Positions 16,294-32,666 of a DNA stretch of 62,203 bases are shown piece by piece. Origin of the DNA: a virus; IMG/VR virus record IMGVR_UViG_3300025233_000001, positions 1-62,203 of that record. The stretch is one strand, 5' to 3'. Under the pieces are notes generated by a model. That model made no database searches, was not told the DNA's origin, and worked only from the letters and a program-made list of their open reading frames with translations. The stretch's first letter is position 1. Each line of letters begins with the position of its first letter. A program made the translations under genes and the position numbers.

Positions 16294-16369
16294 TGGTGCC
16301 GGTAGCAGGAATCGAACCCACGACCGCCTACTTACAAGGTAGATGCTCTACCAACTGAGCTATACCGGC
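16294..16369 (-). tRNA. tRNA-Thr(UGU)
   Basis: This 76-base tRNA has an encoded CCA. The acceptor is GCCGGTA/TACCGGC, the D arm is GCTC..GAGC, the anticodon loop CTTGTAA gives TGT, and the T arm is GTGGG TTCGATT CCTGC. It would read ACA and related Thr codons. Its acceptor-stem sequence recurs exactly in the folded element at 18607-18718. Confidence 0.95.
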
Positions 16370-16557
16370 GAAACTTTGTAGCCCGTGACGTGGGCCAGTC
16401 GATCTAGTCATCAGTACGAAGGCGCCCGATCTGAGCGGCGAGCTAACTACGTTGTATGCTACCAGCAACACACTACGCATGGACGGTAACCCGGAACCCT
16501 TAGAGCCTATGTTTCTCTAAGGCCAGCGTCAGCTTAGGCGGAGCAACGCTCATTATA

Positions 16558-16626
16558 CTAACCTAGATTGGTCCCGTTGTTGACGTGTACGGTGACCTTC
16601 CACGGCACGGCCTTCCAGCCCAGCAT
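16558..16626 (-). CDS. Possible 22-residue micropeptide
   Basis: This short frame (MLGWKAVPWKVTVHVNNGTN...) has a start that overlaps the stop of the 47-residue gene (TAATG). Only the coupling supports it, and it could be chance. The stretch 16370-16557 beyond it holds no gene. It does contain a CCTTAGAG/CTCTAAGG stem (16498-16505 with 16515-16522) of unknown meaning. Confidence 0.3.
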   Translation of the reverse strand: MLGWKAVPWKVTVHVNNGTNLG

Positions 16627-18009: not shown

Positions 18010-18188
18010 CACGCACCGCCAAGAGTCATTTCTTTAATAACTAACTCGCGGTTCTGGTGAATGTAGTCTTCGTGGTTGTCGCCCTTCTCGGTGAGGGTAG
18101 CGAGCAGGGAAGTCCCATTGCGGGTTTCCTCCCATACTTCCACGTAGACATTAGGTTCGACCAGTTCAATACGGACTTTGGTGGTCAT
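18009..18188 (-). CDS. 59-residue microprotein
   Basis: The ATG at 18188 overlaps the stop of the upstream gene (TGATG), and its TGA overlaps the next ATG in the same way. The product begins MTTKVRIELVEPNVYVEVWE and looks like a small beta sheet followed by a charged helix. No family is recognised. The double coupling supports expression. Confidence 0.6.
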   Translation of the reverse strand: MTTKVRIELVEPNVYVEVWEETRNGTSLLATLTEKGDNHEDYIHQNRELVIKEMTLGGA

Positions 18189-18430
18189 CAGCCTTTGCGC
18201 CTGTTCGTTGTTTTCTTCACGACTCGCAGGTTGCTACGAGCGTTGCTCAGCTTACTTCCACCAGTGGACCCGCTCTTGTGATCCACTTCCTTGCCGTCCA
18301 CCTTGGCTTTACCTTCCCGACCTAATGCCCGCACAGCCTTATTGCGCTGATTACGGTTATCGATCTGGGACTGCTTGCCATGGTACTCGGCGTATTCTTT
18401 CGCGTAGTTACGCGGCTCTTTGCGTGGCAT
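18188..18430 (-). CDS. Small HNH-like basic protein
   Basis: This 80-residue protein has an N-terminal basic helix (KEYAEYHGKQSQIDNRNQRN) and a C-terminal EVDHKSGSTGGSKLSNARSNLRVV motif that looks like the core of an HNH nuclease (DH.., N.., NL). Similar short proteins occur in many phages. The normal second catalytic His is not obvious, so it may be a nicking nuclease or a degenerate relative. It is coupled to the LysM gene upstream by TAATG. Confidence 0.6.
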   Translation of the reverse strand: MPRKEPRNYAKEYAEYHGKQSQIDNRNQRNKAVRALGREGKAKVDGKEVDHKSGSTGGSKLSNARSNLRVVKKTTNRRKG

Positions 18431-18588
18431 TAGCCGATCATCACCGGGATATAGATAAAGTCCCCAACGTTAATAACGCTAGAGTCCGTGATCTGGGGAT
18501 TGGCGAACATCAACGCTTCAACAGTCAAGCCGAAACGTACAGCAATGTCCGCGTAGGTGTCCAACGGTTTAGCGCGATAAATCGGCAT
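18430..18588 (-). CDS. 52-residue single LysM-domain microprotein
   Basis: The whole product is one LysM motif: YRAKPLDTYADIAVRFGLTV, then an LMFANPQI helix and INVGDFIYIPV. LysM domains bind N-acetylglucosamine polymers such as peptidoglycan. No signal peptide or catalytic domain is present, so it may act as a lone cell-wall-binding module or a protein-interaction unit in the virion or cytoplasm. The start at 18588 directly follows the shared CGGGGCTATCACG motif and the folded element at 18607-18718; its stop makes TAATG with the next gene. Confidence 0.75.
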   Translation of the reverse strand: MPIYRAKPLDTYADIAVRFGLTVEALMFANPQITDSSVINVGDFIYIPVMIG

Positions 18589-18606
18589 CGTGATAGCCCC
18601 GTGTTA

Positions 18607-18718
18607 GAATTAATTGCCGGTAGCCCATCCATACGGATCGTTACCCGGCTACAGGTAGACTCGGTTCAAAGCTCCGAACTGGCGGTGTCCGTACTAATAG
18701 ACTACCGGCAATTAATTC
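18607..18718 (-). ncRNA. Candidate structured RNA with tRNA-like closing stem
   Basis: A perfect 17-bp inverted repeat (18607-18623 with 18702-18718; GAATTAATTGCCGGTAG and its complement) closes a 78-base region that contains four short hairpins (stems ATCC/GGAT, TACC/GGTA, TCGG/CCGA and GTCT/GGAC on one strand or the other). The segment is gene-free. On the minus strand the closing stem reads GCCGGTA...TACCGGCA, identical to the acceptor stem of the phage tRNA-Thr, but no standard T arm is seen. The function is unknown, and it could be a decayed or unusual tRNA. Confidence 0.45.
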
Positions 18719-18800
18719 AGTGGAACACTAAGCATCGTTGCCCGGTGTGTGGAGGGGAGCCACAGTATGCGGTCTGATACTTAGTGCTCCACTGAATTAA
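18712..18800 (-). ncRNA. Candidate structured RNA stem-loop, 21-bp stem
   Basis: Arms 18712-18732 and 18780-18800 pair over 21 positions. The single non-Watson-Crick pair is A-C on the plus strand but G-U if transcribed from the minus strand, which favours a leftward RNA. Inside is a 5-bp stem (TGTGG/CCACA, 18748-18752 with 18760-18764) with a 7-base loop. The left arm shares bases 18712-18718 with the element before, so the two stems are mutually exclusive there. Confidence 0.45.
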
Positions 18801-18805
18801 CTACG

Positions 18806-18854
18806 CTGCATGGCGGTTTCACGCGGGGGAGGGGACATTACTCCCGCCATGCAG
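18806..18854 (-). repeat. Third stem-loop in the folded intergenic block
   Basis: An 11-bp perfect inverted repeat (CTGCATGGCGG, 18806-18816, with 18844-18854) encloses 27 GC-rich bases. It lies 12 bases downstream of the stop of the 18867-19412 gene. No T run follows on the minus strand, so it is not a standard terminator. It may be the first of three linked RNA structures. Confidence 0.5.
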
Positions 18855-18866
18855 TGCAGAAACTTA

Positions 18867-19412
18867 TTACTTCAAGTGCTGCTTGATTTCCCAGAGCTTG
18901 GCCTTGAGCCAGCCCTTAGCAGCAGCGGTGGCGTTACCCAGCATGGTTTCAATCTGGGTTTCGATTTCGGTCGCCACATTATGTGCTGCGGCCTTCGACT
19001 GCAAGTGCTTCTGTACTTCGTTCTCTGCGGCTACCGGGTCTTTCAGATACGGCTTACCGGGAGGGTGGTCAAGCTCCTGCTCGTCCTGCAACTCCGCTCC
19101 ATCCAGCGCCGCTTTCAGTTCCGCGTCCTGCGCCTTCTGCTCTGCGTTCTCGCCGTCGAGGATGGCCGCACGCTCTGCGAGCGCTGCATTGGTGGCCTTC
19201 TGTTCGTCGGTCAAGCCGTCTTCCTGCGGCGGCTTCTGGTCTTCGGTCTGGCTTCCCGCCGCAACGTCTGCGCTTTCAGAACCAGTCGTGGACCCTTCCT
19301 GATTCGTGGGCGGGGTCTGGTCAGACGTTGCGGCGGTACTCTGGTCGGCAGGCTGTCCAGTCGGAAGCTGTTGGCCTGTCTGTTGTTCGTTGGTATTAGT
19401 TTCGTCGGTCAT
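18867..19412 (-). CDS. Hypothetical protein with long disordered N-terminus
   Basis: This 181-residue protein has a first half of Thr/Gln/Ser/Pro/Glu-rich low-complexity sequence (MTDETNTNEQQTGQQ start) and a second half with Ala/Glu/Lys helices (residues about 65-181) ending AKLWEIKQHLK. No family is recognised. It follows a promoter-like sequence at 19461-19489 and is the last coding gene before the folded block. Confidence 0.6.
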   Translation of the reverse strand: MTDETNTNEQQTGQQLPTGQPADQSTAATSDQTPPTNQEGSTTGSESADVAAGSQTEDQKPPQEDGLTDEQKATNAALAERAAILDGENAEQKAQDAELKAALDGAELQDEQELDHPPGKPYLKDPVAAENEVQKHLQSKAAAHNVATEIETQIETMLGNATAAAKGWLKAKLWEIKQHLK

Positions 19413-19460: not shown

Positions 19461-19489
19461 ACTCTACAACGCCCGGGGGCCGAACGCAA
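19461..19489 (-). promoter_or_regulatory. Putative leftward promoter
   Basis: On the minus strand, TTGCGT and TAGAGT are separated by 17 bases. It is located between the terminator hairpin at 19507-19532 and the gene starting at 19412, the expected place for a new transcript start. Similar boxes occur at 5740-5768 and 24449-24478. Confidence 0.4.
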
Positions 19490-19506: not shown

Positions 19507-19532
19507 AGCCGGGTGAACTTAATCACCCGGCT
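19507..19532 (-). terminator. Hairpin terminator after the 19580-19993 gene
   Basis: A perfect 10-bp stem (AGCCGGGTGA/TCACCCGGCT) has a 6-base loop. Read leftward it is followed by CCTTTATT, a modest T-rich run. It separates the 19580-19993 gene from the next transcription unit. Confidence 0.6.
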
Positions 19533-19579: not shown

Positions 19580-19993
19580 TTACTCGTCGCCAAGCAGGTC
19601 TTCGCCGTCTTCCGCAAGGTTCTGCTCGTCTTCCTGCGTCACGGGTTCCTGCTCGTCGGCGGCACGCTCGCCGTTGTGCCACACGCGGAGGGTCGGGGTA
19701 CCATCGCCGCCTTCCTCGCCGTCCGGGAAGTAGCGCGTCACGACATGAATACCGAGCTTCTTGCCGAGCGAGCTAAAGTAGCTCTGCTTCTGGCTGGCCT
19801 TACGCTTGGCGTCTTCTGCCTGCGTCAGCACCACGCCTTCCTTGGTCTGCGCGCCTTCCGTGCCGGTGACCGGGATCGCGAAGGACTGGCCCTGCGACAT
19901 CTTGTCGAGCGGGTACTGCGAACCACGCGGGGCGAATTCGATTTCACGCTTGGGGATCGAGACGCCATCTTCGATAACGATATTGAACGACAT
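19580..19993 (-). CDS. Conserved phage protein with acidic tail
   Basis: This 137-residue protein begins MSFNIVIEDGVSIPKREIEF and has the pattern of a small conserved phage family (SQYPLDKMSQGQSFAIP, then KASQKQSYFSSLGKKLG, then TLRVWHN). It ends in a strongly acidic tail (EDGEDLLGDE). The tail resembles those of ssDNA-binding proteins, so partner recruitment is possible, but the function is unknown. It stands between the terminator at 19507 and the promoter-like site at 20053. Confidence 0.7.
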   Translation of the reverse strand: MSFNIVIEDGVSIPKREIEFAPRGSQYPLDKMSQGQSFAIPVTGTEGAQTKEGVVLTQAEDAKRKASQKQSYFSSLGKKLGIHVVTRYFPDGEEGGDGTPTLRVWHNGERAADEQEPVTQEDEQNLAEDGEDLLGDE

Positions 19994-21445: not shown

Positions 21446-21622
21446 CTACACCCCTACGTCATACGTGCCGGTTTCGATAGCCACATAAAGTTCATCAGAC
21501 GGAGCGTCCTTTGGAACTTTACTGTTCAGAGTAGCTACCAGAGCGTTAGCTTCCGTTACATGCGCTGAGTCGTACTTAGCCACTTGAACGCCGGTAATCA
21601 GATTAATTACTTTGATGGTCAT
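21446..21622 (-). CDS. 58-residue microprotein
   Basis: Start at 21622 overlaps the upstream stop by 4 bases (ATGA). The product begins MTIKVINLITGVQVAKYDSA and ends YVAIETGTYDVGV. Its outline resembles the N-terminal part of the 17773-18009 product. No function is known. The gene coupling supports it. Confidence 0.6.
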   Translation of the reverse strand: MTIKVINLITGVQVAKYDSAHVTEANALVATLNSKVPKDAPSDELYVAIETGTYDVGV

Positions 21623-21993
21623 ATGTGTACGCCTCCTTCCATAAATGGGACTGCGACTCTAACGGTTGAGGAAGACTGCATCTTACGACATTCTTCCGGG
21701 TCAGCATACAACATTCCCCACCTGCCGTCATCATACTGGTTGGCGTACAGGTAGCCCGTGGCATGTGCTGGCGGGGGTCCGAAGCACGGGATATTAAGTT
21801 CTTCCTTGGTGGTATGGTTAACGCCTTCACCTTTCCCGTTGACCCATCCAAGCTCACCACTCTTGTCACCTTCACCCATCAGAATAACGTCCATGTCTTT
21901 CGCGGTGACGTTACTCACCTGAACTACTTTCCACCAATGTCCTTTGGCGTCTCGTACGGTCAATCTTTCGTGGGGTGTGACATTGTACGTCAT
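21619..21993 (-). CDS. Hypothetical protein
   Basis: This 124-residue protein uses the start at 21993 (MTYNVTPHERLTVRD) because GGAG lies 8 bases upstream; the frame is open further into the preceding gene. It is beta-rich with a KGHWWKVVQV strand, MDVILMGEG and a proline-rich loop (IPCFGPPP). No family is recognised. Confidence 0.6.
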   Translation of the reverse strand: MTYNVTPHERLTVRDAKGHWWKVVQVSNVTAKDMDVILMGEGDKSGELGWVNGKGEGVNHTTKEELNIPCFGPPPAHATGYLYANQYDDGRWGMLYADPEECRKMQSSSTVRVAVPFMEGGVHI

Positions 21994-25754: not shown

Positions 25755-25828
25755 AGACATACTCCCTGCGTGATTAGTGTTGGTTTTGGGACTGGTTTTT
25801 GTCGCGGGTTTTGCTGTGCGTGATAGCC

Positions 25829-25875
25829 CCGCTTGCACTGACTTTGTATCATAGCCTATACACCAGTGCAAGCGG
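25829..25875 (-). promoter_or_regulatory. 12-bp inverted repeat enclosing a promoter-like -10 box
   Basis: CCGCTTGCACTG (25829-25840) and its exact complement (25864-25875) flank 23 bases that contain TATGATAC on the minus strand. It lies between the stop of the 25886-26242 gene and the amidoligase-like gene. It could be an operator around a promoter or a folded RNA leader. The motif CGGGGCTATCACG follows it, as after the element at 18607-18718. Confidence 0.5.
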
Positions 25876-27688: not shown

Positions 27689-29101
27689 TTACATACGGTT
27701 CGTAACGGTGCGCCATTGATCGTCGCTCATACCCTTGCGGATAGTCGCAGCAATAGCGAAGTCTTGCGTAAACCCAGCGCGGATAAGCGCGGCACCACGG
27801 ATGCTAGCGCGAGGCGACACCACATGCTTGATACCTGCACCCTGCACCGCTTTGCGCACCTTGTGCACATAGTTCACCCACGCATCATTGCTCGCGAGCG
27901 CACGCTCTAACGCTTCGTCGTAGCCCCACTCCAACATGATGAACCGATCCACGGTAGCCGCATCCAACTTGTTACGGCCCACATACTCATGGGTTGCACC
28001 ACTGCCGAACGTATTAGCTGCCGCGATCACGATACAGTTTTCATGCCGCACAACGTCACCGTCCGGGAACACACAGTGACCATTCTCAAGCGCGGCATTG
28101 AGTGCCACCATGGCTTGCGGATTGCTTGCGTCCACTTCGTCAAACAGAAACACCCCGCCATGCTCATACGCTTCCCGGAACGGCGTGCGGTGCACCGTGC
28201 CGCCCGCATCACGAAAGCCAGTCAGCTTGTAGTCTGTATCTACTGCGCCGGTATGGTGGAAGTCCAAACCCATAACCTTTGCCGCGTTCATTGCTGCGGT
28301 CGTCTTGCCGCTGCCAGCCGGACCGGGAAGCCATACCGGGAACGCGTAGCCGTTATGGTCACGCACCTGTAAGAGCGACAACAACACCGGGAATTGCTTG
28401 TGCTGAATCCCCGCATTTTCCGTGCTGGTATTGCCTTCGCTATCCGTGCGCGCAATGTGAACCACGGTAGGCACCGCGCCAATCTTTGCTAGCTCCTGCC
28501 CGCACACTGCCCGCGCAATCGCTTCCACCTGCGCCGGATCAATCGCAGGCTTATTGCTCGCTGCCAATGCCGCCATGAGATTAGCCAAAGCATCCTTTAC
28601 TTCTGGCTGTGCATTCGCTTCGCCGTTGTCCGTAGGCGTCACTTGAGCCGCACTATGCGTAGCGGCTGGCTGCGCACGCTGCACTCGGCGCGGATTAGGT
28701 AGCGGCACGCTATCTGTCACCATAGAGCTAACAATCTCCTGTATGTCATCACGCGCTGCGCTGGCTTGTTCCATGGTCTGGTGATTCCCGGTGTTGTTGA
28801 AGTCGCCGTCTTGAATGTATGCGGTATGCGGCTTGCCCGCCTTACCTTTGCCCGCCTCAATAATGGCATGGCTTGATGCTTCCAACGCCGGTAGATGCGC
28901 TTCCATTTCGTTCATGCGGTCGCCGTACGTCTGCACCATGTGTTGCGCGTAGTTCGCCTTGAACGGTTTGGCGAATGCCTTGATATCCGTAGGCTTTGCA
29001 CGGCCAGACATCGCCATTTCCAGTTTGTTTATGTCGCTGGTAACAAGGTTTGCAATACGCAGCGCCATAGGGTGAGAGAACTTAAACGATAGAGTTGCCA
29101 T
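27689..29101 (-). CDS. AAA+ ATPase of the CobS/MoxR type
   Basis: This 470-residue protein has an N-terminal region (1-230), helical with a basic/polar linker, that may recruit substrate. The AAA+ core follows: Walker A GPAGSGKTTAA, Walker B GVFLFDEVDAS, sensor 1 IVIAAANTFGSG, and arginine-finger/sensor 2 features (VDRF, SPRASIRG). CobS/MoxR-type ATPases remodel protein complexes, usually with a partner protein. Here the DUF7192-like gene follows at once and an amidoligase-like gene lies downstream. It is the first gene of the leftward unit after the control region. Confidence 0.87.
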   Translation of the reverse strand: MATLSFKFSHPMALRIANLVTSDINKLEMAMSGRAKPTDIKAFAKPFKANYAQHMVQTYGDRMNEMEAHLPALEASSHAIIEAGKGKAGKPHTAYIQDGDFNNTGNHQTMEQASAARDDIQEIVSSMVTDSVPLPNPRRVQRAQPAATHSAAQVTPTDNGEANAQPEVKDALANLMAALAASNKPAIDPAQVEAIARAVCGQELAKIGAVPTVVHIARTDSEGNTSTENAGIQHKQFPVLLSLLQVRDHNGYAFPVWLPGPAGSGKTTAAMNAAKVMGLDFHHTGAVDTDYKLTGFRDAGGTVHRTPFREAYEHGGVFLFDEVDASNPQAMVALNAALENGHCVFPDGDVVRHENCIVIAAANTFGSGATHEYVGRNKLDAATVDRFIMLEWGYDEALERALASNDAWVNYVHKVRKAVQGAGIKHVVSPRASIRGAALIRAGFTQDFAIAATIRKGMSDDQWRTVTNRM

Positions 29102-29178
29102 GATTTAGGTGTCCTATTGTTAGTGTTGCTGGTGTCACTTCGGGGTTTAACTTCGGCTCGCTTTCAAGGCGAGGCATG

Positions 29179-29187
29179 AGTATAGCA
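29179..29187 (-). promoter_or_regulatory. Extended -10 promoter element for the AAA+ module
   Basis: On the minus strand the sequence TGCTATACT fits an extended -10 box (TGnTATAAT-like), about 80 bases before the AAA+ gene start. The -35 region (TAGAAC) is weak, as often with extended -10 promoters. Confidence 0.45.
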
Positions 29188-29229
29188 GGGTCTAGAATAA
29201 AGTTCTACTAGGTCTGCCACGGGCAATAG

Positions 29230-29900
29230 ATCGATGGATAAGCGAACCTCGCCCGGTTTGTTTCCTGTGTTTCCTAGTGGTGTCGGTGAATGAGTGTCAC
29301 GCACTGGCAGGAAACAAACCGCGATAGGTTACAAGCGCACTAAAAGGTTACAGCGAGTTAATAGGATACAAGCGGGGTCTAGCTAGCAGGTGTTGCCGGT
29401 AAGCGTATCGAGTTAGATAGACGGGCAGGGTTTAACGAAAAATGTACAGACAGACTAAGGTTACAAAAGAAACGCATGGAATCAATCACTTACGTGCGGC
29501 GTTTCCTCTGTTTCCTCTCTAGACAGTAGCTAGCGAAAATCGAGGCGTTTACAGCACACGCACTAAGTAACCTTGTTTCTAAATGGTGTAGTTACGCACT
29601 AATCGGAAACGGCAGGTCTAAATGGTTACTAGTGGTGGTGCGGTTTTCGCCTCGCGTGTGAACCTCTATTAAAAACTGGATACAGGTTACAGTTAAATAC
29701 TACAAATGAGCAGTACCAATGGTTCCCGCTGTTTCCTACTTGTAACCTTTTATGGAAATTAAACGGAATTCTAATAATCCGTCTGTGTTGAACCTACGGC
29801 TAGGATACATAGCAATTTACGCACACAGTAACCTTGTAACTTTCCTGTGTACCTAATACGGCCACCGTCCATGGCAGCCTATTAAGTCGGGGTGAACCCT
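29230..29900. other. Non-coding control region with iterated GGTTACA and GTTTCCT motifs (candidate origin)
   Basis: No gene is seen from 29102 to 29913. GGTTACA occurs at 29327, 29346, 29459, 29685 and, inverted, at 29741; the variant GGATACA occurs at 29364, 29678 and 29803; GGTTACT variants occur at 29566, 29624 and 29827. GTTTCCT occurs at 29260, 29269, 29501, 29510 and 29731, and inverted at 29309. The region is AT-richer than its surroundings and lies near the junction of the two arms. Iterated short motifs are typical of initiator-binding origins or regulator arrays. Confidence 0.55.
29254..29321. repeat. Perfect 14-bp inverted repeat in the control region
   Basis: CGGTTTGTTTCCTG (29254-29267) and its exact complement (29308-29321) are separated by 40 bases. 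The arms contain the GTTTCCT motif. It may be a protein-binding site or a cruciform/stem-loop used in replication or transcription control. Confidence 0.65.
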
Positions 29901-29913
29901 ATTTAGAACTTAA

Positions 29914-30132
29914 TTAATAGGTAAACCCAGCTTGCACCATCGCATTACCTTTTCTGTACACAACGTGATTGACATCATCACAGTCGATTAATTCATACTT
30001 GCCAGTTGCGCGGTCGTAATCTCCACGCTGATAAACCTTATTACTGTCCGGCTTGAGCTTAATAAACTCGCCTTTCGGTAGAGACTTAATCATATACATA
30101 CCCAGTTCCACGGTATTAGCTTGCGTAGTCAT
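29914..30132 (-). CDS. Conserved small phage protein
   Basis: This 72-residue protein starts at 30132 (MTTQANTVELGMYM) with GGGAG 8 bases upstream. The pattern KGEFIKLKPDSNKVYQRGDY, then YELIDCDDVN, is that of a small protein I recall from many phages, with no assigned function. It is the only gene inside the control region between the two arms, so its product may be an early protein. Confidence 0.7.
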   Translation of the reverse strand: MTTQANTVELGMYMIKSLPKGEFIKLKPDSNKVYQRGDYDRATGKYELIDCDDVNHVVYRKGNAMVQAGFTY

Positions 30133-30244
30133 ATGCGAGACTCCCATTAAGTGACGGCGTAAACGTTGAAAGAGTAATTAACTAGATATTAGTTAATCGG
30201 AACTACGGATTAAGCGGCCCGGAGCCTTTCTTACCGTAGACTCT

Positions 30245-30253
30245 ATTATACCA
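30245..30253 (-). promoter_or_regulatory. Leftward promoter with consensus extended -10
   Basis: On the minus strand TGGTATAAT gives a perfect TATAAT -10 box (30245-30250) with the TG extension. It lies about 110 bases before the 29914-30132 gene. The -35 region has no good match. Confidence 0.55.
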
Positions 30254-30579
30254 TCCTTTTTGATTAAGTCGGATTAAGTTTAATTATCCCGGCCAGTATT
30301 ATCTCTGATTAATTCCATCCGGCAGGCCACGGCGGGGGTAGGGGGCACCGGACCAAGCGATTTCGCACCCCCCTGTCGATCCGGCAAGCCCACTCCGACA
30401 TACATACTAGAATACCCTTGTAACTCAGATAATCCGCGCATACTTCGATCTACTTGAGATAGACACCACCCCGTCAATCTGTTCCCAGAAAATATCTCGC
30501 ACCCTTTGAAAATTCGCCCTTGCGTCGGCAGTGCGGCCCCGCGTACTCTGTAACCCTATCGACCCGGACGTTGTAGAAT
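30254..30579. other. Non-coding region before terminase; candidate packaging site and late promoter region
   Basis: No convincing gene is seen. It contains a GC-rich stretch with runs of G and C (about 30328-30375; GGGGGTAGGGGGCACC, then GCACCCCCC). Packaging sites often lie just upstream of the small terminase gene, so a cos or pac site here is plausible. TTGAAA and TTGCGT boxes at 30506-30530 might serve the late operon, but no strong -10 is seen. Confidence 0.35.
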
Positions 30580-31215
30580 ATGCAACAGCACCCAGCCCCC
30601 GCAGCCTTTAATGACTCTGTAGCCCTACGTGCGCAGAACCTACGCTTCCGTGGGATAGGCAACCCCTACGCTTTCTTGAATGGCATTGGCATTGTACCCA
30701 TTAAGGAATTCCTGTTCCGTGGGGCTACGATCATCGAGCTAGCGGAAACCATCAACCTTCCCGTCAGCACTATACGAAACTGGATCGAGCAAGAAGGCCA
30801 CCAGAACGATATTGACGAGGCTAGCACACTCTCCGCAGAAGGCTATCTGGTACAAGGCGAGAGGATGTTGCGTACTGCGGCTAATAAGTTCGAGTTGGAT
30901 CGGGCAAAGTCAATGCTGGAACATGGACGTTGGCTGGCGTCGAAACGCGATAAGAAAACCTATGGTAACCTTCCCGGTGAACAGGGTGGTGCCGCAGCCG
31001 TCAGTTATACATTCAATATCGGTGCAGATAATGCGCAGATCAACATTGCACAGCAGACCAACCTGCGACATAAGGGCGAGGAAGATGCACCTCCACCGGT
31101 CACATTTGACTTAAATACATTCCAGATCGACGGACATAAACCTGATCACTTGCAGAAAGTTCACTCGGACTTTCCGGCCATTGCTGCCCTAGAAGTCCCG
31201 GAGGACTACGAGTGA
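30580..31215 (+). CDS. terS: Terminase small subunit
   Basis: This 211-residue protein has a helix-turn-helix at residues about 45-70 (ATIIELAETINLPVSTIRNWI), as in small terminase DNA-recognition domains, followed by a helical oligomerisation region and a C-terminal polar tail. It recognises phage DNA for packaging and hands it to the large subunit. The stop overlaps the large terminase GTG start by 4 bases (GTGA). No strong ribosome site is seen before the ATG at 30580. Confidence 0.8.
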   Translation: MQQHPAPAAFNDSVALRAQNLRFRGIGNPYAFLNGIGIVPIKEFLFRGATIIELAETINLPVSTIRNWIEQEGHQNDIDEASTLSAEGYLVQGERMLRTAANKFELDRAKSMLEHGRWLASKRDKKTYGNLPGEQGGAAAVSYTFNIGADNAQINIAQQTNLRHKGEEDAPPPVTFDLNTFQIDGHKPDHLQKVHSDFPAIAALEVPEDYE

Positions 31216-32666
31216 CTGTAGTTAATAAGACCTACACAGCAGAGCCCACGCCGCAGCGGTTACATAATGATCGTGGGATGGACGTGCAGTACATCGAAGG
31301 ACCGATGGGTTCAGGTAAGTCTACTGCGTGCATGATGGAGATACTCATGCGTGCGTTCAGGCAGCAGCCGGACGAGAATAAGATACGTAAGTCGCGCTGG
31401 GCGATTGTGCGTAATACGTACCCTGAGCTTAAGACTACCACTATTAAGACTTGGCAGGAGTGGGTACCGGATGAAGTAGCTCCGGTGGTTTACTCTATGC
31501 CGATCCTATGTAAGTTTAAGCAGCGCATGGCGGACGGTACGAAAGTTGAGCTAGAAGTTTATTTCATGGCGCTGGATACCCCAGATGACGTGAGTAAACT
31601 TCTGTCACTGGAACTGACTGGTGCGTACATCAACGAAGCTCGCGAAGTACCGTGGGAGATTTTGGAAGGTTTGATTTCGCGTATCGACCGATACCCGAAA
31701 ACCATTAAGGATGACCAAGGAAACAAGTTATATGGTGCGACTGAACCCGGCGTTATTGCCGACAGTAATCCGCCTAGAACTACACATTGGGCGTACACAA
31801 AGTTTGAACCGGGAGCATCCGAAGAACCTGCACCGCAATCGTGGCGTCGATATAAACAGCCGCCTGCGGTGTATTGGGATGGAGAACGGTGGGTTCTTAA
31901 CCCTGATGCAGAGAACTTACGGAATCTATCCAGCGATTACTACGACCGACAGCTAGCGCTGGGTGAAGAACACATTCGCGTGAACTTGGCCGGTGAGTAT
32001 GGCATGACTAAGCGCGGTAAGGCCGTGTTTAGTAAGTTCAGCGAAATGAAGCACGTCGCTAAAGAGATATTGCTACCGCGACGCGGTACGACAATCTTGC
32101 TAGGCGTAGACTTTGGCCTGACTCCGGCAGTGGTAGTTGGACAACTTAATATGAAGGGACTGGTGTTACTGGATGAGTTACCAGCAACCGATGAGTCTCT
32201 TGAAGACTTCCTAGATCAGTATGTGCTGCCACTACTTCGCACAAAGTATAATGGCTACACAGTAGTAGCATCAGGTGACCCTTCCGGTTCGGGACGGTCT
32301 AGCTTAACTAAGATGACGTCAATACAAATGATGATGCAGCGAGGCATCAAGACGTATCCTGCGGTAACGAATAACTTCGGTAAACGTAAGGAAGCGGTCG
32401 ATTGGTTCCTAGGTCGCGATGAAGGTTTCGTGGTAAGTCCTAACCTTTCACACATTCGTGAAGTAATGGGAGCGGGTTATGTATGGAAGCAGACCCGGAA
32501 TAATGCAGGCAAAGTGCTAGACATCGCAGATAAGAATGAATTCTCACATATGGCAGATGCGATCCAGTACCTTGCGCTCTATGCCCGCTATGGTGCAGGC
32601 GTGGCCTCTAAGCCCGAAGACAACGGCAAGCCAGCGCAGAGTGGCCCGGGGTTCCGGTACGCTTGA
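31212..32666 (+). CDS. terL: Terminase large subunit
   Basis: This 484-residue packaging motor has an N-terminal ATPase with Walker A GPMGSGKST (30-38), a coupling Walker B-like AYINEAREV with catalytic E142, and a C-terminal RNase H-like nuclease with acidic motifs LLGVDFG, ASGDPSG and MADAIQYL. It pumps DNA into the prohead and cuts it. The GTG start is at 31212. The length is typical for podophage TerL. It is followed directly by the lysis cassette. Confidence 0.93.
   Translation: MTVVNKTYTAEPTPQRLHNDRGMDVQYIEGPMGSGKSTACMMEILMRAFRQQPDENKIRKSRWAIVRNTYPELKTTTIKTWQEWVPDEVAPVVYSMPILCKFKQRMADGTKVELEVYFMALDTPDDVSKLLSLELTGAYINEAREVPWEILEGLISRIDRYPKTIKDDQGNKLYGATEPGVIADSNPPRTTHWAYTKFEPGASEEPAPQSWRRYKQPPAVYWDGERWVLNPDAENLRNLSSDYYDRQLALGEEHIRVNLAGEYGMTKRGKAVFSKFSEMKHVAKEILLPRRGTTILLGVDFGLTPAVVVGQLNMKGLVLLDELPATDESLEDFLDQYVLPLLRTKYNGYTVVASGDPSGSGRSSLTKMTSIQMMMQRGIKTYPAVTNNFGKRKEAVDWFLGRDEGFVVSPNLSHIREVMGAGYVWKQTRNNAGKVLDIADKNEFSHMADAIQYLALYARYGAGVASKPEDNGKPAQSGPGFRYA

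Follow-up and report, generated by a model that had tools for sequence, protein, structure and literature searches.

What is the 278-nt gap between two leftward genes of a soil phage for, given that three stem-loops fill it? The window, meaning the whole stretch of viral DNA analyzed here (a record of 62,203 bases), has its genes pointing leftward below ~29 kb, down to 0, and rightward beyond 30.6 kb. We find that the block is a genuine element at the RNA level, conserved in position and belonging to no named family, and that selection appears to act on the shape of the RNA itself, because the letters change completely between relatives while pairing and position are kept. The block and its surroundings are as follows, in leftward order.

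19507-19532, minus strand: terminator-like hairpin at the end of the preceding leftward unit (terminator scan).
19461-19489, minus strand: candidate promoter of the leftward unit, TTGCGT-N17-TAGAGT, read from the sequence.
18867-19412, minus strand: upstream gene, a 181-aa protein without family match, in whose stead G001 and G002 carry a 54-aa ORF.
18801-18859, minus strand: hairpin A, whose perfect 11-bp core lengthens to 16 nt at 88%; leftward z −5.5.
18708-18804, minus strand: hairpin B, whose stem is almost unbroken over ~29 bp when read as leftward RNA; z −10.2 leftward, −4.5 rightward.
18607-18718, minus strand: hairpin C; z −7.0 leftward, −5.1 rightward.
18589-18600, minus strand: conserved leader motif of 12 nt, GGGGCTATCACG, which lies just 3' of the hairpins and immediately ahead of the LysM ATG.
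18430-18588, minus strand: downstream gene, a 52-aa LysM-domain protein (Pfam PF01476).
18188-18430, minus strand: 80-aa HNH-like phage protein (phrog_4590).

The block had been picked out by a sequence-only reading as gene-free and lying between two leftward genes, and so it proved: it is bounded by the 181-aa gene (ending at 18867) and the LysM gene (starting at 18588), and the sole ORFs overlapping it are antisense and spurious-looking. The three inverted repeats described in that reading are likewise present in the sequence, and a repeat search lengthens their arms to 31 nt (84%), 25 nt (92%) and 16 nt (88%), respectively.

18607-18623 with 18702-18718: 17/17 arms.
18712-18732 with 18780-18800: 20/21 arms.
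Near 18806-18816 with 18844-18854: 11/11 arms.

Hairpin C has a 17-bp perfect foot (GAAUUAAUUGCCGGUAG), a stem that runs on to 31 nt with G-U pairs and a branched tip; hairpin B has the foot GUAGUUAAUU and carries CUCCCCU in its apical loop. With G-U pairs allowed, the stems of B and C (29 and 31 nt) score 63 each on the leftward strand and are the two best stems of the 62-kb genome, both strands considered; in 100 dinucleotide-preserving shuffles of the genome, the best stem averages 35, with a maximum of 47. Folding of 18590-18870 gave z = −7.2 leftward and −4.0 rightward, and the block from A to C alone gave −11.1 and −4.9, with the neighboring coding DNA at −0.2 and 0.0. An earlier suggestion that B and C share bases and could switch between folds holds in its first half for ~18708-18718, that is, for the 7-11 terminal A/T-rich bases of palindromic feet, and for nothing beyond those. 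Switching itself is not indicated, because the overlap is confined to these feet and the minimum-energy structure retains both stems. No terminator-like site of the intrinsic kind (a G+C-rich stem, then a U run) was found in 18601-18860, no U run follows the stems, and a consensus scan showed no good promoter inside the block. The candidate promoter at 19461-19489 is weak by consensus and unflagged in the same type of scan; a similar block occupies the same place in relatives.

That no known element explains the block, as initially supposed, is supported by our searches of Rfam and of phage and prokaryote genomes. At the gathering score, Rfam 15 matched only two tRNAs in the window, and at relaxed thresholds the best sub-threshold match at the block reached 17.9 bits against a cut-off of 100. 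A blastn search of the block against 50,697 phage genomes returned no match, species-representative prokaryote genomes (GTDB) yielded no known family, and a literature search for similar phage elements found nothing specific. We discarded a single Bacteroidales motif match (13.1 bits, E 0.5) as probably due to chance. Two named candidates were also rejected: an integron attC site, whose simple sites are RYYYAAC / GTTRRRY, the feet here reading by eye GTTAATT / AATTAATT; and the phi29 packaging RNA, the block having no match to the Rfam pRNA model.

The phage is HMO-2011-like, and its portal protein is nearest to those of Rhizobium phages and HMO-2011-like marine podoviruses (24-30% identity). 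A host in the Xanthomonadaceae is plausible, because two features both point to Stenotrophomonas phages: the tRNA-Thr of the window is 86% identical to a Stenotrophomonas phage tRNA-Thr, and a 137-aa protein (19580-19993, minus strand), which hints at the host group, has distant homologs that neighbor the DNA polymerase gene in Beaumontvirinae phages of Stenotrophomonas. Elsewhere in the window, 29150-30580 is a gene-poor divergent control region in which GTAACCTT, GGAAAC and TTAATC motifs are repeated; it also contains an inverted repeat (29245-29330) that has a counterpart at a like place in G001 (28863-28938); this region is a candidate origin or early promoter region.

Four proteins and three DNA motifs served as queries for relatives among the genomes of IMG/VR and GTDB, which left just six usable genomes plus one near-identical fragment. 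The 80-aa HNH-like protein retrieved this fragment and three near-complete relatives, listed with the protein identity found in that search, and a capsid search added G004 (63,987 bases) and G006 (35,863 bases).

G001: 62,870 bases, 83% protein identity.
G002: 63,050 bases, 81% protein identity.
G003: 62,651 bases, 78% protein identity.

G001 and G002 each have one long hairpin at the equivalent position upstream of the HNH gene, and G003 has two. The more distant G004 has two hairpins nearby, with other small genes between them and the HNH gene, and G006 has no such hairpin upstream of its HNH gene. The stem letters are unrelated between most relatives, with an A/T-rich foot (TTAATT or TTTAAT) kept, and the 3' flank (G)GGGCTATCACGATG is kept in the window and in G001-G003. 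Copy number (1 to 3), the length of the tip and the sequence of the stem are free to vary, while paired form, place and 3' flank are constant. Stem lengths range from ~9 bp (G004_2) to 29 bp; a double strand of at least ~20 bp is present in B, C and G001 and absent in A, G003_1 and G004. The HNH-like gene is the first gene past the hairpins in G001 and G002; a link of the hairpins to this gene family was rejected, with 75 HNH loci of other phages lacking such hairpins. A UCCCCU(CC) apical motif is common to the loops of window A and B, G001 and G003_2. Such elements may be common in this phage group, because the early operon of Rhizobium phage RHph_TM27A, which belongs to the same broad group, also contains a long, unrelated hairpin (intergenic, 35-nt arms, z −5.4; locus L154, 9564-9637, plus strand; record 21563-21636).

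GGGGCTATCACG follows the hairpins in G001, G002 and, shortened, in G003, and is retained although the next gene varies (LysM, HNH or a mini-ORF). The same 12-mer or a close variant also lies near predicted starts of other leftward transcripts, and it is possibly a regulatory leader or operator.

GGGGCTATCACG near other predicted leftward starts: window 25819-25830 (minus strand); G001, minus strand, 24141; G002, plus strand, 13732 (variant); G003, plus strand, 19609.

A joint alignment of all eight hairpins was uninformative. The hairpins were also compared in pairs against hairpin-preserving shuffles: G001-G003_2 homology is clear (0/600) and is the sole clear pair among 36 comparisons. Suggestive pairs, uncorrected for these 36 comparisons, are window B-window C (7/600), G003_2-G004_2 (13/600), window A-G003_2 (14/600) and window C-G002 (16/600). 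B and C are tied to the relatives' hairpins by position, architecture and foot, and their similarity to each other and to G002 is suggestive.

In an alignment of G001, G003_2 and G004_2, both sides have changed in 5/23 pairs, and 88.9% of cells are paired compared to 29-42% for slid-partner controls; covariation from three sequences is limited but direct. A covariance model built on these hairpins (R1) picked up a site in G001 that had not been seen before (E 1.6e-6) and lies 2.2 kb downstream, and gave a weak match to a site in G002. Both sites form the last 85-110 nt of a gene-free stretch reaching tRNA genes. Window B scored 22.7 bits against R1 with filters off in a 1.2-kb stretch, and was absent from the genome-wide R1 search. 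Four members of the module are clear (G001_II, G002_II, G003_2 and G004_2), and their shared core may be represented as a three-way junction, [P1]CC-RUCC...GGA-RCC-NNN(N)-GGY-URUAAA-GG[P1']. All 14/14 core pairs are kept in the four members, 6 with double changes, the supporting tool counts covering three members. A second model of the three-way-junction module (R2, from G001_II, G002_II and G004_I2) recovered the held-out fourth member, G003_2, with 30.0 bits (E 7e-6). Against the window hairpins, R2 matched B through its stem only (12.7 bits) and did not match A or C. We, therefore, regard window B and C as the same element as the relatives' hairpins by place and form, and do not claim membership in the module family as proven.

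Together, these data bear on the proposal that selection acts on a leftward RNA, which had been drawn from the single mismatch in the 20/21 stem, indeed A-C on the plus strand and G-U on the minus strand. The proposal gains support from compensatory changes in homologous hairpins, from a module core whose sole non-Watson-Crick pairs are G-U on the leftward strand, and from z values by which the leftward strand is relatively better folded in 8/9 hairpins. Conservation of pairing in related phages, named at the outset as the check to make, was found as compensatory double changes wherever homology is traceable. Given these changes and the covariance-model match upstream of a relative's tRNA genes, pairing is conserved at the RNA level.

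The window has a stretch corresponding to those before the relatives' tRNA genes.

16370-16625, minus strand: another leftward stretch free of genes, immediately before tRNA-Thr (16294-16369).

It aligns with the G001 and G002 stretches whose 3' end is the homologous hairpin module, and is itself unmatched by R2. The conserved tRNA-upstream stretch also occurs at loci L108 (17325-17610, minus strand), L113 (150-464, plus strand) and L117 (6125-6280, plus strand); it carries the motif AAGGAAACCGUGUGUUAACGGGACC, is present in G003 without a tRNA, and matches the non-coding end region of Erwinia phage phiEaP8 at 27/29 bases, including a paired change. A different gene-free stretch of ~300 nt lies directly behind a shared promoter in G006 (L139, 14228-14530, minus strand) and in G004 (across record ends); it is 78-88% conserved between the two, of ordinary stability, and probably another non-coding RNA. 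Neither this nor the tRNA-upstream stretches fold better than shuffles, and we therefore make no claim of stability for them.

Tentatively, we interpret the block as a structure-only RNA processing or insulating element of the leftward polycistronic transcript. It is an array of three tandem structured modules between the 181-aa gene and the LysM/HNH genes, and would act through double-stranded shape and not letters, which fits because the paired form, place and 3' flank stay while the rest varies. The long stems would form while the transcript emerges and would be cut by a double-strand nuclease, or would block the passage of degradation and ribosomes; either way, the upstream and downstream messages would be separated, with the downstream mRNA beginning near the conserved leader GGGGCUAUCACG. 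RNase III is the obvious enzyme, because it is known to process the transcripts of lambda, T7 and T3 (PMC5371410). After cutting, the downstream message would presumably start like other leftward transcripts, because GGGGCTATCACG recurs near those starts, and the related module directly 5' of the relatives' tRNA genes may play the same role for the tRNA transcript. Like RNase III sites, the hairpins of the window and relatives are stem-loops between genes of a polycistronic phage transcript. Free stem sequence and tip length would be expected of a structure-only element, and the block contains neither a U-run terminator nor a good promoter. Against processing, RNase III would act poorly on stems as short as ~9 bp (G004_2) unless these were stacked; T7 has several sites, compared to only one or two such loci per genome here; the predicted accessibility of the start region without hairpins changes inconsistently; and the module model matches window B only through its stem (12.7 bits) and window C not at all. 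The unpaired URUAAA conserved in some module members suggests more than a plain stem.

The rival explanations rank from a discrete trans-acting RNA through a cis-regulatory leader to a DNA element. It is rather unlikely, though worth weighing, that the modules mature into discrete structured non-coding RNAs acting in trans (~60-120 nt each or ~250 nt together). They might, for example, serve as decoys for a host protein that binds RNA or takes part in defence, or work as antisense RNAs via exposed C-rich loops. Very high stability, a copy number of 1 to 3, arms-race-like turnover of letters with the shape kept, and a related module in the gene-free stretch beside tRNAs would all suit such RNAs, as would the UCCCCU loop motif shared by A, B, G001 and G003_2, which complements Shine-Dalgarno-like G runs; however, the tip is not conserved across members, C, G002 and G004 lack a C-rich loop, and the block has no promoter of its own. 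Extending this to a new family of hypervariable tandem phage RNAs, keeping fold and not sequence and acting in trans from the early operon and beside tRNA genes, e.g. as decoys against host RNA-binding or defence proteins, seems to us unlikely.

Also unlikely is a leader or attenuator that regulates the downstream LysM/HNH message in cis without cleavage, whether by switching translation, by put-like antitermination or by stabilizing the transcript. The block does lie directly 5' of the conserved start region, and in G001 and G002 the hairpin is a few hundred bases past the shared promoter; in the window, however, the distance to the candidate promoter is ~600 nt. Removing the hairpin in silico raises the mean unpaired probability of the start region from 0.39 to 0.65 in G001 and from 0.25 to 0.63 in G002, but leaves it at 0.40 (from 0.42) in the window and changes it little in G003. 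Gene order past the hairpins differs, and Rfam gave no riboswitch or leader match. The least probable of these readings, and in our view a quite improbable one, has the inverted repeats act as DNA, with RNA folding a by-product. They would then be a hairpin for replication or recombination, an array of operators, or a mobile element that is palindromic and targets TTAATT. On both strands, the arms form nearly perfect inverted repeats, the palindrome AATTAATT sits at the boundaries, and the passage from conserved flank to unrelated hairpin is abrupt between G001 and G002, giving a modular look. Yet every imperfect pair in the module core is a G-U on the leftward strand, leftward z is better in 8/9 hairpins, traced homologs diverge via paired substitutions and not swaps, and blastn of the 50,697 phages and a further genome search found no copies elsewhere.

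RNA elements that conserve pairing alone escape sequence search in gene-by-gene phage annotation. Here, a position-conserved, sequence-free RNA element could be followed across a handful of uncultured phages and linked to another site next to tRNA genes. As a processing element, it would show how long early transcripts are partitioned in such phages; as a trans-acting RNA, it would be a new kind of phage effector.

Among known systems, the put antiterminator RNAs of HK022 are adjacent stem-loops in a phage transcript, as are the hairpins here, whereas the window block is not directly behind a promoter. GOLLD, ROOL and other large phage RNAs lie near tRNA genes and thus resemble the module as non-coding structured RNA beside phage tRNA genes, whereas the module is far smaller and has no Rfam match. 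The phi29-type packaging RNA (Rfam Bacteriophage_pRNA), whose structural conservation is discussed in PMC12670572, shares a size of ~100-120 nt, a closed foot, a three-way-junction-like fold and variable letters with a constant fold; in contrast, the block lacks an Rfam match, lies within mRNA and is repeated, and the phage carries a large-terminase-type packaging gene (31212-32666, identified by reading alone). The RNase III hairpins of T7, T3 and lambda (PMC5371410) are likewise long intergenic stems at a kept position in a polycistronic phage transcript. Compared to these, cleavage of the present hairpins is predicted and some stems are short, and the locus differs in its tandem of three, its unusually fast letter turnover and the related module that also lies upstream of tRNA genes.
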